From the NCBI RefSeq assembly GCF_014647475.1, contig NZ_BMPG01000002.1, positions 496,001-560,000 on the forward strand: a stretch of DNA of 64,000 nucleotides, read 5' to 3'. Positions within the stretch are counted from its first letter, which is position 1. Each line of letters begins with the position of its first letter. Shown one piece after another: positions 29,457 through 38,339 of the stretch. The position numbers and the translations under genes were made by a program. This stretch comes from Halocalculus aciditolerans (lineage in GTDB: Archaea; Halobacteriota; Halobacteria; Halobacteriales; Halobacteriaceae). The notes under the pieces were generated by a model. That model had not been told where the DNA came from and searched no databases. It saw nothing but the letters and a program-made list of their open reading frames with translations.

Positions 29457-32087
29457 ATGAGCGAACAGACCGGAACGATCGACGTGATGGGGATGTCCTG
29501 TGCGAGCTGTTCGGGGAGCGTGCGGGACGCCGTCGCCGCGCTCGACGGGGTGTCGTCGGCGAGCGCGAACTTCGCGACGGACGGCGCGACCGTGACGTAC
29601 GACCCGGAGCGCGTCTCGATGGCGGAGATTTACGACGCCATCCGCGGGGCGGGCTACGACCCGGTCTCCGAGACGGTCACGGTCGCCATCACGGGGATGA
29701 CGTGTGCGAACTGCGCGAGCACGAACGAGACGGCGCTGGAGGGCGTTCCCGGCGTCATCGAGGCGGACGTGAACTTCGCGACGGACGAAGCGCGCGTGAC
29801 CTACAACCCTTCGATGGTGTCGCTCGACGACCTCTACGACGCCGTCGAGGACGCGGGCTACGAGCCCGTGCGGGAGTCGGGAGCCGACGGCGGGGAGGGG
29901 GGTGCCGTCGACGAGGCGCGTTCCGCGGAGCTCGCGCGGCAGAAACGCCTCAGCCTCCTCGGCGCGGCGTTCACCGCGCCGCTCCTCGCGCTCATGGCCG
30001 TCCACCTGCTCTCACCGGGCACCGTTCCCGACACGATTCCGGGGACTGCGCTGCCGTTCGGTCTCGTGCCGTTCGCGCTCGCGACGCCCGTGCAGGTCCT
30101 GCTCGGCCGCGAGTTCTACGAGAACTCCTACCACGCGGTCTGGAAGAACCGGTCGGCGAACATGGACGTGCTCGTGGCGCTCGGGTCGACGACGGCGTAC
30201 GCGTACAGCGTCTTCGTGCTCGCCGGCGTGCTCCCGGGCGAGCTCTACTTCGACACGGCGGCGTTCGTCCTGCTCTTCGTAACGGTAGGAAACTACTTCG
30301 AGGCGCGGACGAAACACCGCGCGGGCGACGCGCTGCAGGAGCTCCTCGAACTCGAAGCCGACGAGGCGACGGTACTGGAGGACGGCGAGGAGCGGGCGGT
30401 CGACGTCGACGACATCGCGGTCGGCGACCGCCTGCTCGTCCGACCGGGGGAGAAGGTCCCGACGGACGGCGTCGTCGTCGAGGGGCAGTCCTCGGTGGAC
30501 GAGTCGATGGTGACGGGCGAGTCCGTGCCAGTGGAGAAGTCGGTCGGCGACGACGTGGTGGGCGGGACGGTGAACGAGAACGGCCGGCTCGTCGTGGAGG
30601 CGACGGCGGTCGGCGCGGACACGGCGCTCCAGCGCATCGTGCAAACGGTGAAAGAGGCGCAGTCGCGACAGCCGGACGTACAGCGGGTCGCGGACCGCAT
30701 CAGCGCGTACTTCGTGCCCGCGGTCGTGGTGAACGCGCTCGTCTGGGGAGTGCTCTGGTACGCGTGCCCGGGCGCGCTCGCGGGGTTCGTGGAGTGGCTG
30801 CCGCTCTGGGGGCTCACTGGTGGCGGGCCGGCGGTGGTCGGCGGCGCGGTGACGGCGTTCGAGTTCTCCGTGCTCGTCTTCGCGTCAGCGGTCCTCATCG
30901 CGTGTCCGTGCGCGCTCGGCCTCGCGACGCCGGCGGCGACGATGGTCGGGACGGCGCTCGGCGCGCAGAACGGCGTCCTGTTCAAGGGCGGCGACGTCCT
31001 CGAACGCGTGCAGTCCGTCGACACGGTCGTCTTCGACAAGACGGGAACGCTCACGACGGGCGAGATGACGCTCACCGACGTCGTCGCGCTCGACCGGACC
31101 GCGGCGGACGGCGGCGAGCGAACGGACGGTTCGCGAGGGACGTCGGAGCTCCGCTCCGACGGAGGGGCGGTGGCGAGCGGCGGCGGCGCGGACGCCGAGA
31201 CGACGCCCGCGGAAACCCGCCTGCTACGTGCGGCGGCGAGCGCGGAGCGCGGGAGCGAACACCCGCTCGGCGAGGCGCTCGTCGACGGCGCAGCGGAGCG
31301 AGGCATCGACCTCACGCATCCCGAGACGTTCGAGAGCGTCCCCGGGCACGGCATTCTCGCGTCCGTGGACGGCCACCGGGTTCTCGTCGGGAACCGCGCG
31401 CTCTTCGACCGCGAGGGGATTTCGGTTGACGCGGCCGAGTCGACCATCGAGGACGTCGCGTCGCAGGGGAAGACGCCGGTGCTCGTCGCCATCGACGGCG
31501 ACTTCGCGGGCGTGCTCGGCGTCGGCGACACGGTCCGCGAGACGGCGAAGGAGACGGTACAGGAACTCCTCGACCGCGGGCTGGGCGTCCGCCTCCTCAC
31601 GGGCGACAACGAGCGGACGGCCGCGGCGGTCGCCGCCGAGCTCGACATTCCCAGCGGGTGCGTCCGCGCGGACGTCCGTCCGGAAGAGAAGGCCGAGGTC
31701 ATCGACTCCCTGCGGACGCCGGGGACGCGCGTGATGATGGTCGGCGACGGCGTGAACGACGCGCCCGCGCTCGCCGCCGCGGACGTCGGCGTCGCCGTCG
31801 GTTCCGGGACGGACGTCGCCATCGAGGCGGCGGACGTCACGCTGATGCGCGACGACCCCTCGGACGTCGTGAAAGCCATCAACATCTCCGAGGCGACGCT
31901 GCAGAAAGTGAAGCAGAACCTCTTCTGGGCGCTCGGGTACAACACGCTCGCCATCCCGCTCGCCTCGCTCGGTCTCCTCCAACCCGCGCTCGCCGCGGCC
32001 GCGATGGCGTTCTCCTCGATGAGCGTCCTGACGAACAGCCTCCTCTTCCGGAACTACGACCCGAGCGAGCGGTACGAACGCCGCTGA
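29457..32087 (+). CDS. copA: Copper-translocating P1B-type ATPase
   Basis: 876 residues. Two N-terminal HMA domains have GMSCASC (C15, C18) and GMTCANC (C83, C86). Eight helices include the transport motif [11 protein letters not shown] (C483-P-C485); DKTGTLT has the phosphorylated Asp (D527), and VPGHG, GDNERTA and GDGVNDAP follow. The end [10 protein letters not shown] fits Cu+ exporters. It pumps Cu+ (or Ag+) outwards. A Gly/Ala/Asp-rich insertion (about residues 550-590) expands the ATP-binding region. The CopZ-like gene converges on its 3' end with no gap. Confidence 0.95.
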
Positions 32088-32291
32088 CTACTCTTTCTTC
32101 GTCGCCTTGTAGCCGACTTCTGCGATAGCGTCCTCGATGTCCTCGGCGTCGGCGTCGCCCTCGACGGTCGCTTCTTCGTCTGCGAGCGAGACGTCGACGT
32201 TCCGCGTGCCGGTGACGCCGTCGATCGCGCTCGTCACGACGCGCGAACAGCCTTCGCAGGTCATCCCCTCGATGTCGAACTTCTGGGACAT
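32088..32291 (-). CDS. copZ: HMA-domain copper chaperone, CopZ-like
   Basis: 67 residues, a single ferredoxin-like HMA domain with GMTCEGC (C12, C15) and a C-terminal KATKKE. It should carry Cu+ in the cytoplasm to the ATPase HMA domains. It is transcribed towards copA and ends exactly next to the copA stop, while its promoter is shared back-to-back with the AsnC-TRASH regulator gene. The two genes are thus likely to be regulated together. Confidence 0.9.
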   Translation of the reverse strand: MSQKFDIEGMTCEGCSRVVTSAIDGVTGTRNVDVSLADEEATVEGDADAEDIEDAIAEVGYKATKKE

Positions 32292-32386
32292 ATCCCGACG
32301 TACGACCCACCAATAATTCAGTGTTTTGGTTGCTTGAAAATAATTCGGGCGGGGGCGCTATATACCTCGGGCCGTAAGCTGACGGC
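32292..32386. promoter_or_regulatory. Divergent copZ / regulator promoter with direct repeats
   Basis: A strong TATATA box at 32359-32364 lies 23-28 nt before ATG 32387 and indicates a leaderless regulator gene. On the other strand an ATTATT box near 32311-32316 serves the copZ-like gene. The octamer AATAATTC occurs twice as a direct repeat (32312-32319 and 32339-32346), one overlapping the copZ box. These look like binding sites for a metal-responsive regulator, probably the AsnC-TRASH protein. Confidence 0.5.
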
Positions 32387-32977
32387 ATGCGGACGCTGGA
32401 CGACATCGACCGCGAGATTCTGCGCTTGCTCGCCGCCGACGCGCGACGGCCGTACAGTGAGATCGCGGAGGCGGTGGACCGCTCCCCGCCGACCGTCTCG
32501 GAGCGCATCGACCGCCTCCAGGAGCTCGGCGTCGTCCGCCGGTTCACGGTGGACATCGACCGCTCCCTCCTCGACACCGGGACGCCGATTCTCCTCGACG
32601 TCGAGGTGAAGCCCGCGGAGGTCGAATCCGTGCGGGCGGCGCTCGCGGAGTCCGACCGCGTCGAGCACGTCTTCGTGACGGCGGACGCCCGCGTCGTCGC
32701 GCAGGTCTACGTCCCCGACGGCGGCGTGCGGACGTTCCTCGCGGAGAACGTCCCGTTCGACGCGGTCCGCGAGTACGACGTCTCCCTGCTGAGCGAGAGC
32801 GACTGGACGCCGCGCGTCGGCGAGGCGGAGCTCGCGCTCACCTGCGCGGAGTGCGGAAACACCGTCACGGCCGAGGGGGAGTCCCTCCGCGTGGACGGAG
32901 AGCGGTACCACTTCTGCTGTCCGTCCTGCCTCGACCGGTTCGAGTCGACGTACGAGCGGTTGAGCGGCGGCGCGTGA
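32387..32977 (+). CDS. AsnC/Lrp family regulator with C-terminal TRASH domain
   Basis: 196 residues. Residues 1-55 are an AsnC winged HTH (DDIDREILRLLAADARRPYS then SPPTVSERIDRL). Residues about 65-135 resemble the Lrp RAM domain. The C-terminus is a TRASH metal-binding module with C153, C156, C177 and C181 (CAECGNT and HFCCPSC). TRASH proteins sense copper in archaea (CopR/CopT), and this gene sits between the chaperone and another HMA protein, so control of the island is the natural guess. Confidence 0.9.
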   Translation: MRTLDDIDREILRLLAADARRPYSEIAEAVDRSPPTVSERIDRLQELGVVRRFTVDIDRSLLDTGTPILLDVEVKPAEVESVRAALAESDRVEHVFVTADARVVAQVYVPDGGVRTFLAENVPFDAVREYDVSLLSESDWTPRVGEAELALTCAECGNTVTAEGESLRVDGERYHFCCPSCLDRFESTYERLSGGA

Positions 32978-33017
32978 GTAGCGTAAGGCCCTAACGTATC
33001 CCCCGCAAAAGCCGGGT

Positions 33018-33302
33018 ATGAGCACGACGCTCACCGTGGACGGCATGAACTGCGATGGCTGTGCGGACATCATCACCGGCGCGCTCGAGGAAGTCAGCGG
33101 CGTCGACGACGCGAGCGCGGACCTCGACGCGAAGACGGTCTCGGTCGACGGCGACGCCGACGCCGACGACCTGCTCGAAGCAGTCGAGTTCGCCGGCTAC
33201 GACGCGTCAATCGACGAGGCCGCCGACGAAACTGACGACGCCGACGAGGAGGCTGACGCCGAGGCCGCCGACGACGAGGGCGACGCCGACGACGAGGAGT
33301 AA
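33018..33302 (+). CDS. HMA-domain protein with long acidic tail
   Basis: 94 residues. The first 62 are an HMA domain with GMNCDGC (C11, C14). The last 32 are almost entirely Asp, Glu and Ala, without any other Cys or His. The N-terminal phrase STTLTVDGM is very close to that of the degenerate relic at 29090-29176, so the two may derive from one ancestor. The tail could be a halophilic solubility extension or a metal-buffering arm. It probably works with the neighbouring copper genes. Confidence 0.85.
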   Translation: MSTTLTVDGMNCDGCADIITGALEEVSGVDDASADLDAKTVSVDGDADADDLLEAVEFAGYDASIDEAADETDDADEEADAEAADDEGDADDEE

Positions 33303-34502: not shown

Positions 34503-34549
34503 GCCATAAACTTACCTTCCGTAACCAGGTAACCACTGGGTTCGTTACC
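34503..34549 (-). promoter_or_regulatory. HxlR promoter with repeated GTTACC motifs
   Basis: On the plus strand CTTACC (34511), CGTAACC (34520), GGTAACC (34529) and GTTACC (34544) fall within 40 bases just upstream of the HxlR gene. On the minus strand TTAC-GGAAG-GTAA is an inverted repeat next to the likely TATA box (AAGTTTATGG, about 34503-34512). The cluster also overlaps the 3' end of the photolyase gene. Autoregulation by HxlR is likely. Confidence 0.45.
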
Positions 34550-36041
34550 ACGGGGCGTCGTCGCCGACGCGCTCTCGGACCACGTCGGCGCGGTCGCGGA
34601 TGGCCTCGAGGTCGCCGGTCTCGCGTTTGTCGTCGAGGTGCGCGTAGACGAGCCCCATCCGGTGGTTCGACCGCAGCGCGTCCTCGTGTTCCGCGAGGAA
34701 GTCCCAGTAGAGGCCGTTGAACGGGCACGCGCCCTCGCCGGTCGTCGCGTGGGGGTCGAACGCACAGCCCGCGCAGTGGTCGCTCATCCGGTCGACGTAG
34801 TTCGCGGACGCCGCGTACGGCTTCGTCGCGAGCGCGTCGCTCCCGTAGACGCCCATCGCGACGACGTTCGGCGTCGTCACCCAGTGGTAGGCGTCGACGA
34901 AGCCCGCGTGGAACCAGTCGTTCAGCGCGCCCGGGTCCACGCCGTACGTCAGCGCGAAGTTCGAGAGCACCATCAGCCGCTCGATGTGGTGGGCGTACCC
35001 CCGCTCGCGCACGCCCTCGACGGCGTCCCCGAGACACGCCATGTCCGTCTCCCCCGACCAGTAGACGTCGGGGAGGTCGCGCGTCGCGCCCAGCCGGTTC
35101 TCGTCCGCTAAGCGAGGTTCGCGCCGGTAGACGTGCCGCACGAACTCCCGCCAGCCGAGCAGCTGCCGGACGAACCCCTCCACGGAGTTGAGCGGGACGT
35201 CGTCACGTTCCTCGTAGGCGGCTTCGGCGGCCTCGACGGCCTCCATCGGTCCGAGCAGTCCGAGGTTGATCGCGGGGGCGAGGAGGGCGTGGTTCACCGC
35301 CCACTCGCCTTCGACTATCGCGTCCTGATACGGGCCGAAGTCCGCGAGCCGATTCTCGACGAAGTCGTCGAGGGCGTCCAGCGCGCCCCCGCGCGTCACC
35401 GGCCAGTCGAAGCCCTCGACGCTCCCCCACGTCTCGTGGGTCGCCTCGACGTCGTCCATCACGTCCCGCGTGAGGGCGTCGGGCTCGAAGCGAACCGGCT
35501 CGGGATAGTCGTAGTCGTCGGGGGGCGTGTCGCGGTTCTCGCTGTCGTAGTTCCACTCGCCGCCAACCGGCTCCCCGCCGTCCATCAACACGCCCGTTCG
35601 CTCGCGCATCCGCCGGTAGAACGCCTCCTGTTTCGGTATCTCGTCGAACCACTCGTCGAACGCCGCGGGCGTCGAGAGAAACGTCTCGTTCCCGACGAAC
35701 TCGACGTCGCCGCCCGCGTCCGCGATGGTCTCGCGGAGCGCCGCCGCGGCGTTCCGGCCCGCCGGCCGCATACACGTGAGCGTCTCCTCCGGGTGGTCGT
35801 CGAAGAAGGCGGTGAAGCCCTCCGCGAAGGAGTCCGCCTGTTCGTAGCGGACGGTGACGCCGTCGTCGCGGAGGGCGTCGCGGAGATGCCGCATCGCCGA
35901 GAACACGAGGACGAGCTTCTTCGCGTGGTAGGGTTTCCGAGCCGCGAACTCGCGGGACTCCACCATGAGCACGCGCTCCGGGTCGTCGGCGAGCGGACCG
36001 GCGCGCCGCACGAGCTGGTCGCCGAGCACGAGGACCGTCAT
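34545..36041 (-). CDS. Iron-sulfur bacterial-type cryptochrome/(6-4) photolyase (PhrB-like)
   Basis: 498 residues. The N-terminal half opens with MTVLVLGDQL, the DPRP-domain start. The FAD-binding half contains the four Cys that bind a 4Fe-4S cluster in FeS-BCP photolyases: C336, C423, C426 and C439 (DHCAGCAF and GACPFNGLYW). Length and cysteine spacing match Agrobacterium PhrB, which repairs (6-4) lesions. It is expected to repair ultraviolet damage, useful in sunlit brine. ATG 36041 is chosen; longer N-terminal extension in the same frame lacks homology. Confidence 0.93.
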   Translation of the reverse strand: MTVLVLGDQLVRRAGPLADDPERVLMVESREFAARKPYHAKKLVLVFSAMRHLRDALRDDGVTVRYEQADSFAEGFTAFFDDHPEETLTCMRPAGRNAAAALRETIADAGGDVEFVGNETFLSTPAAFDEWFDEIPKQEAFYRRMRERTGVLMDGGEPVGGEWNYDSENRDTPPDDYDYPEPVRFEPDALTRDVMDDVEATHETWGSVEGFDWPVTRGGALDALDDFVENRLADFGPYQDAIVEGEWAVNHALLAPAINLGLLGPMEAVEAAEAAYEERDDVPLNSVEGFVRQLLGWREFVRHVYRREPRLADENRLGATRDLPDVYWSGETDMACLGDAVEGVRERGYAHHIERLMVLSNFALTYGVDPGALNDWFHAGFVDAYHWVTTPNVVAMGVYGSDALATKPYAASANYVDRMSDHCAGCAFDPHATTGEGACPFNGLYWDFLAEHEDALRSNHRMGLVYAHLDDKRETGDLEAIRDRADVVRERVGDDAPW

Positions 36042-36123: not shown

Positions 36124-36870
36124 ATGCCCTCCACACATCCAGGCGACGACCCGGACGGCCGAGCGGACGCAGACGGCGTCGACGCCGCAGGTGACGCGGA
36201 CCCGCCGGGGGACGGACGGGCCGCGTCGGCGTCGCGACTGGCGGAGGCGAAGCGCGTCACCGGGGACGCGCCGTGGCTCGCGGTCGTTCCCGCGCTCCTG
36301 TCGGTCGCGTCGCCGGACAAAATCGGTGAAATCGCGGCCTACGACGGCTTCCACGTCGGCGTGAAGTTCGCGCTCCCGCCGGGCGTCGGGTCGCTCTGGA
36401 CGCTCGTGGACCCGCCGAGTCAGGGAGTCACCGTGAACGCGCCGCCGTCGCTCCTCGTGCTCGCGGCCGGCGCGGCCCTGGCGCGCTCGGCGCGGGGTAT
36501 CTCGGCGCGCTCGGCCAGCGCGCTCGCGGCGACCCGCTCGCCGCCCGCGAGTGCGCACGGCTCCTCCCGCACGTCCTCGGGTTCACCGTCCTGCGCGCCG
36601 GCGTCGGGTACGCGCTTCTCGTCCTGCTCGTCGGCCGGGGTGCGGTCGGCGTCGCGTCCGCGTTCGTCCTCCTCGCCGTCCTCGGCTACCTGACCTGCGG
36701 GACGCCCTACCTCCTCGCATACCACGTCGGCCTCCCGCGCGCCCTCGTCGAGAGCCTGCGACGCGCCGTCGACGACCCGCGGTACGCCGGATTCGTCGCG
36801 CGCTACCTCGTCGCCGCGGCCGTCGTCTCGGTCCCCCTGAGCGCCGTCACGGTGAACGCCGGCGTCGGCG
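36124..36870 (+). pseudogene. Frameshifted and truncated membrane-protein gene
   Basis: From ATG 36124 the frame reads a normal acidic N-terminus and helices up to VLAAGAAL (near 36480). The continuation is found one frame away as GALGAGYLGALGQRARG and runs through LPHVLGFTVLRAGVGYALLV and GYLTCGTPYLLAYHVGLP to SVPLSAVTVNAG. A net one-base loss around 36478-36485 explains this. The gene then stops matching near 36870, where minus-strand nitric oxide reductase sequence begins, so the C-terminus is also missing. It resembles a haloarchaeal family of uncharacterised multi-helix proteins. Confidence 0.6.
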
Positions 36871-37109
36871 GCGGCGTACCCCTGCGTGTAGACGGCGTCG
36901 AGCTGGAGGAAGCCGACGGGGAGGGGGCTCGCGAGGACCATGACGGCGAGGCCGGCGTTAGCGAGCCAGAAGGAGCGGCGGCACCACGGCGGGTCCCGGT
37001 CGGCGCTGGTGGCGCGGAGGACTACGCGCGTGCCGAGCGCGAGCATCCCGAAGGCACCGAAGAGCGCGGCGAGGGCGGCGGCGACGGTGCGACGCGAGAG
37101 TTCCGTCAA
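36867..37109 (-). pseudogene. norB: Fragment of quinol-dependent nitric oxide reductase (qNor)
   Basis: The frame encodes AALFGAFGMLALGTRVVLRA, then RRSFWLANAGLAVMVLASPL and PVGFLQLDAVYTQGYAAA. These match the last two or three helices of qNorB, where known proteins read xHAALFGxxGxLALG then FWxxNxGLALMxxxSLLPxGxxQ. Only about 80 of more than 700 residues remain, and the conserved His/Thr just before ALFG is gone. Past YAAA the frame enters the opposite-strand membrane gene. It cannot be functional. It sits 75 bp from a halocyanin gene. Confidence 0.6.
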
Positions 37110-37183
37110 TCGCCGCGACGGAGACCCGCGTCGAGTAGCCCGCGGCCCGAGAGGTTTTAGTCGGCGAGCGGCGAGGGAGAGGC

Positions 37184-37642
37184 ATGGTCGAGACGCGGCG
37201 GTCGTTCCTGCGGGCGGCGGGCGTGACGGCGCTCGCGGCGACCGCTGGCTGCATCACGGACGCGGCAGAGACGCCGGAGTTCCTCACCGACGGGCCGAGC
37301 TACGACGGCTGGTTCGAGAACACGTCGAACTTCACGGGCACGCTCGACTACACGGGCCGCGGGCAGGTGGAAGTCGAGGTGGGCGTGCCGGGGAACGGCG
37401 GACACTTCGGGTTCGGGCCGGCGGCGATAAAGGTCTCGCCGCGCACGGTCGTGCGCTGGGTGTGGACGGGGAAGGGCGGCAGTCACGACGTCGTGGCGGT
37501 CGACGGCTCCTTCGAGTCCGACTACCACCATCAGCCCGGCGCGTCGTTCACGCATCAGTTCGACGAGCAGGGCGTCCACCGGTACGTCTGCGAGGCGCAC
37601 GCCGAGAAGGGGATGCGGGGCGCGGTCGTCGTCGGCCACTGA
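37184..37642 (+). CDS. hcp: Halocyanin (blue copper protein), Tat lipoprotein
   Basis: 152 residues. RRSFLRAAG and lipobox TAGC (C23) mark Tat export and lipid anchoring. The type I copper ligands are H101 (GSHDVV), C136, H139 and M144 (YVCEAHAEKGM). It carries electrons at the outer membrane surface to a terminal oxidase or, in denitrifiers, to nitrite or nitric oxide reductase. A TTTTAG box about 28 nt upstream suggests a leaderless start at ATG 37184. The neighbouring reductase remnant hints that the gene was once part of a denitrification cluster. Confidence 0.93.
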   Translation: MVETRRSFLRAAGVTALAATAGCITDAAETPEFLTDGPSYDGWFENTSNFTGTLDYTGRGQVEVEVGVPGNGGHFGFGPAAIKVSPRTVVRWVWTGKGGSHDVVAVDGSFESDYHHQPGASFTHQFDEQGVHRYVCEAHAEKGMRGAVVVGH

Positions 37643-37706
37643 CGCCACACGGTCTGCGACCCGCGCGACCGTGCGGTCTAAACCTCCGCGTCGCCTACCG
37701 GAGACC

Positions 37707-38339
37707 GTGCAGAACGTCACCGACCGTACGAGCAACCCGTTCGGCATGAGCCCGCCCGGTGACCGCGTCGTCCACGGCTACGGGGACGCGAACGCGGACT
37801 TCCACGTCGTCGGCGACCACCCCGGCGTCCACGGCGGCGTCGACACCGGCATCCCGTTCACGGGGACCGCGGCCGTCGAGCGATTCTGGGACGCGCTCGC
37901 CGCCGTCGGCCTCGCGGCCGCGGAGCCGGAGCCGACGCTCTCGAACTGCTTTGCGTCCTACCTCCACGCCGCCGTCCCCGACGCCGACGGCGCGCCCACG
38001 AGCGCGTCCTACGACCGCCACGAGGCGTTCTTCGATTCGGAGCTCCGCGCCATCACCGCCCACGTTCTCCTCCCCGTCGGCGAGCGCGCGACCCGTCACG
38101 TCCTCGAACAGTACACGCCCCGCCCGGCGGCGCTCGCGGACGACCTCGACGCGATTCACGGCGAGGAACTCAGCGGGTCGGGCTTCCTCGTCGTCCCCGC
38201 GAAAGACCCCGCGGACTGGACGGGCAGCGACTTCGACGACTACGTCGACGGCGTCGAGCGCGTCATGTCGTGGGACTACCGTCGAGAGAGCGACCTCGGT
38301 CGATTCCTCCCCGGCGACGAGACGTACACCGTCCGGTGA
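37707..38339 (+). CDS. Uracil-DNA glycosylase family protein
   Basis: 210 residues starting at GTG 37707, about 28 nt after a TCTAAAC box. ADFHVVGDHPGVHGGVDTGIPFTG resembles the GExPG...G.PFxG motif of family 4-6 UDGs, with the Glu replaced by Asp (GDHPG). NCFASYLHA stands in the second motif region, and LLPVGERATRHVLEQ resembles the G-x-x-A late strand. The usual FeS cysteines of family 4 are absent. It may be a repair enzyme or a catalytically altered relative. Confidence 0.75.
   Translation: MQNVTDRTSNPFGMSPPGDRVVHGYGDANADFHVVGDHPGVHGGVDTGIPFTGTAAVERFWDALAAVGLAAAEPEPTLSNCFASYLHAAVPDADGAPTSASYDRHEAFFDSELRAITAHVLLPVGERATRHVLEQYTPRPAALADDLDAIHGEELSGSGFLVVPAKDPADWTGSDFDDYVDGVERVMSWDYRRESDLGRFLPGDETYTVR

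Follow-up and report, generated by a model that had tools for sequence, protein, structure and literature searches.

The segment at 36,124 to 37,642 of the window, the 64,000-nucleotide stretch of the Halocalculus aciditolerans genome analysed here, is best explained, with a probability of roughly 0.78, as a genomic scar in which a remnant of the nitric oxide reductase qNor and a frameshifted membrane-protein pseudogene were joined by a deletion, the qNor gene being probably an acquired one of the type with a long N-terminus. On the minus strand, a 74-codon qNor remnant adjoins the shortened 3' end of the plus-strand pseudogene, within the following arrangement.

34545 to 36041, minus strand: intact photolyase-related gene (DPRP), a flanking syntenic marker
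36124 to 36872, plus strand: pseudogene belonging to a haloarchaeal family of uncharacterised membrane proteins, with homology to relatives over 36232 to 36872 and the C-terminal ~34 residues gone
36479 to 36485, plus strand: frameshift in the membrane-protein gene, net one base short, found against all seven relatives
36867 to 36875: GGCGGCGGC stretch where the two homologies meet, at which we infer a deletion joint and its mechanism
36867 to 37088, minus strand: qNor (NorB/NorZ) relic of 74 codons, equivalent to residues 621 to 698 of the 770-residue NorB, with the HxH heme-ligand motif changed to A.L
37184 to 37642, plus strand: intact halocyanin with a Tat-type signal and type-1 copper ligands, whose closest relative, in genome G023, occupies the same locus
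37671 to 38339, plus strand: intact uracil-DNA glycosylase (UDG) superfamily gene, a flanking syntenic marker

Judged by homology, the minus-strand piece is a real qNor remnant, as the initial annotation had proposed. Its translation, TVAAALAALFGAFGMLALG...FWLANAGLAVMVLASPLPVGFLQLDAVYTQGYAAA, aligns to qNor without a frameshift, matching the intact NorB of the same genome at E=1.5e-15 (55% identity); the best match in 392 genomes from the same order has E=3.4e-23 (66% identity). Of the extent first given for it, 36867 to 37109, the start at 36867 holds, whereas the homologous part ends at 37088, and a frame-tolerant alignment in search of more norB sequence beyond 37088 added none. Compared with haloarchaeal qNor/NorZ, members of the heme-copper oxidase superfamily (COX1, PF00115), the 74 residues correspond to the helix carrying HxH and the one after it, with 51-66% identity, but around 90% of the protein is absent, including ~620 N-terminal and ~72 C-terminal residues. 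Pfam returned only a sub-threshold COX1 match for the fragment, and NCBIfam no family over threshold.

A full haloarchaeal qNor catalytic subunit has about 14 helices, and in heme-copper oxidases the HxH histidine pair binds hemes. At these positions, which are invariant as HxH in 40 intact copies, the relic carries A and L, and the piece would therefore be non-catalytic even within a protein. What it retains is qNor sequence of recognisable origin, including 21 of 24 highly conserved positions, and neither the full catalytic subunit nor the HxH ligands.

The plus-strand gene had been described as frameshifted and deprived of its C-terminus near 36870, and alignment to seven relatives confirms both features. 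A single frameshift at 36479 to 36485 recurs in every frame-tolerant alignment, and homology stops at 36869 to 36878 in five of the seven, the other two alignments extending into norB antisense. Approximately 34 of the 254 residues found in relatives are absent from the C-terminus, and this lost portion could not be made out by eye in the 95 bp that separate the relic from the halocyanin. Taken alone, the frameshift could be a sequencing error. The gene has no family match in Pfam or NCBIfam; eight genomes of a single genus in the family carry relatives with 34-43% identity, and two more genera give weak matches. These same-family relatives occupy the same position and direction ahead of UDG, but the copy here is frameshifted and C-terminally truncated. 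A working protein from either remnant is unlikely.

The relic and the plus-strand gene overlap in their last codons, within the repeat at 36867 to 36875, a meeting point that suggests a deletion joint. Because two convergent genes both lack their 3' ends at one GGC repeat, a deletion between short repeats may be proposed; the proposal is drawn from the joint alone, since no close relative with an intact ancestral arrangement was found and the genus is represented by a single genome in the comparison. The earlier picture of two convergent genes whose ends were removed by a deletion thus holds for the missing 3' ends. It does not hold for the whole, as norB is also without its N-terminal 620 codons, and one deletion between convergent 3' ends cannot explain everything. 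A further loss is required at the other end of the relic, between 37088 and the halocyanin start at 37184.

Comparison of gene order shows that, apart from the scar, the locus is a conserved photolyase-UDG neighbourhood, to which the halocyanin belongs in one other genus at least. The window and its relatives have in common, and in the same order, a copper-ATPase-like gene, a small metal-binding protein, regulators, photolyase, UDG and other genes. In seven genomes of genus g4, a member of the plus-gene family stands directly ahead of UDG, with neither norB nor halocyanin there, and the gene is thus not the nor or denitrification partner suggested; in three of the seven (G010, G011 and G018) the family member is itself immediately preceded by the photolyase, which is divergently oriented. 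The plus-strand gene is often lost, because it is absent in G013, G015 and G024, where photolyase abuts UDG, and only a short piece with an internal stop is found in G025. This piece, beside UDG at L096:7694-7840, represents an independent decay of the same gene.

The adjacent halocyanin is intact, as initially annotated, scoring 119.6 bits against TIGR03102 (cut-off 93.8); its Tat-type signal and type-1 copper ligands were recognised by reading the sequence. Its best match among 146 genomes is in G023, which belongs to another genus, at 59-61% identity. There, the halocyanin lies between photolyase and UDG, its start nearly adjacent to that of the photolyase, and no norB is present at the locus; the norB of G023 lies almost 1 Mb from there, in the vicinity of copper-protein genes, some of which have halocyanin-like domains. 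Since a halocyanin occurs at this locus without norB in G023, it is a resident of the locus and does not on its own signal a nor cluster, contrary to its description as a survivor of denitrification genes. Nor does its genomic setting suggest that the halocyanin would donate electrons to nitric oxide reductase. Copper-ATPase-like and small metal-binding genes at 29457 to 33302, near the halocyanin, are also conserved in relatives, and the locus may be concerned with copper handling.

Nitric oxide reduction is probably retained, since another contig of the same genome (C3) encodes an intact 770-residue qNor, through which the organism is predicted still to be able to reduce NO. The gene after it encodes 105 residues and resembles, by eye, the DUF2249 genes of nor clusters. 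This qNor lies in an approximately 11 kb block (G000:C3 199.5-210.8 kb; L035:497-11771) with 93-95% DNA identity to G004 of genus g3, compared with 71-85% identity for the genes common to the window and G004. The block was thus probably transferred recently between genera, judging from this difference in identity. Of the two genes suggested for a search in the rest of the genome, intact norB was accordingly found, and NirK gave no match over the family cut-off, which the same search exceeded for one control genome out of 14.

The nir-nor clusters of Haloferax mediterranei contain nirK, nor, DUF2249 and halocyanin genes (PMC11218638), and halocyanins also lie within nir-nor clusters of other haloarchaea (PMC7754194, PMC11218638). 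In the window a qNor piece and a halocyanin are similarly close together, but nirK, an intact nor nearby and a DUF2249 gene are all absent from the locus, and the halocyanin belongs to the photolyase-UDG neighbourhood. No norB was found at this locus in the other 25 genomes of the family, where every match is a long intact gene elsewhere; the fragment itself is the sole support for a lost denitrification cluster.

These clusters, together with the occurrence of halocyanin only a few kb from norB in G008, G011 and G023, would fit a norB-halocyanin denitrification module in an ancestor shared by this genus and that of G023, after which norB decayed here, norB and the membrane gene were deleted in G023, and halocyanin survived in both; the near-adjacent halocyanin and photolyase starts in G023 make an intervening deletion plausible. 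We consider such a history doubtful, given that no genome was found to have norB at this place, that G023 has the halocyanin at the locus without it, that neither nirK nor another nor-cluster gene is seen in the window's locus and that those long-type norB loci inspected by eye have no obvious adjacent halocyanin. The lineage of the relic bears on a separate alternative. A tree of the 74-residue region, which is short and gives the relic a long branch, separates it from the intact NorB and places it, with support of 98/92, in a second qNor lineage of haloarchaea. This lineage has long N-terminal extensions and frames of ~1020-1100 residues (L137-L147; clade of L108-L111, L116, L119-L121, L123, L125-L127, L129, L132-L135), and the relic is likely derived from it on the basis of this placement. 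An AU test does not reject grouping the relic with the clade of the genome's own NorB (p=0.247), which would allow it to be a decayed older resident or duplicate of that type; this origin appears unlikely, as the best tree places it in the long-NorB clade and the relic is only 51-55% identical to the intact protein.

The state of the reading frame raises the further idea that the short qNor-derived frame is still expressed, having been recruited to serve as a small membrane protein of two helices. The frame is open, with codon GC by position of 0.74/0.57/0.96, and differences by codon position are alike for the relic (0.30/0.23/0.47) and intact genes (0.29/0.24/0.45), so that either the loss was recent or the frame is still constrained; the retained conserved positions also fit recruitment. 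On the other hand, no stop follows the homologous part and the frame continues for ~149 codons antisense to the membrane pseudogene, the piece is known at this place from this genome only, and among the matches listed from the 392 genomes nearly all lie in long frames, apart from a few frames of 177-248 aa. Recruitment is therefore very improbable, and its more specific form, a heme-free membrane protein transcribed divergently from the halocyanin, would be slightly less credible again. If dead, the relic died recently, as its codon-position differences resemble those of intact genes.

In the preferred reading of a deletion scar, a qNor gene, probably acquired and of the long-N-terminus type, would have stood between the membrane gene and the halocyanin, directed at the membrane gene. 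A deletion at the GGC repeat would have taken the facing 3' ends of both genes, additional loss would have taken ~620 N-terminal codons of qNor, and the intact qNor on the other contig would now probably serve NO reduction.

The initial annotation saw the scar correctly and read too much into it in proposing a lost denitrification cluster; a single fragment next to a halocyanin is insufficient to call denitrification lost or a cluster formerly present. The segment is an ordinary pseudogene scar that documents, on a small scale, the turnover of qNor genes in haloarchaea: one qNor, probably of the long type, was lost from a chromosomal locus, and an intact qNor resides in a block that another genus carries in nearly identical form.
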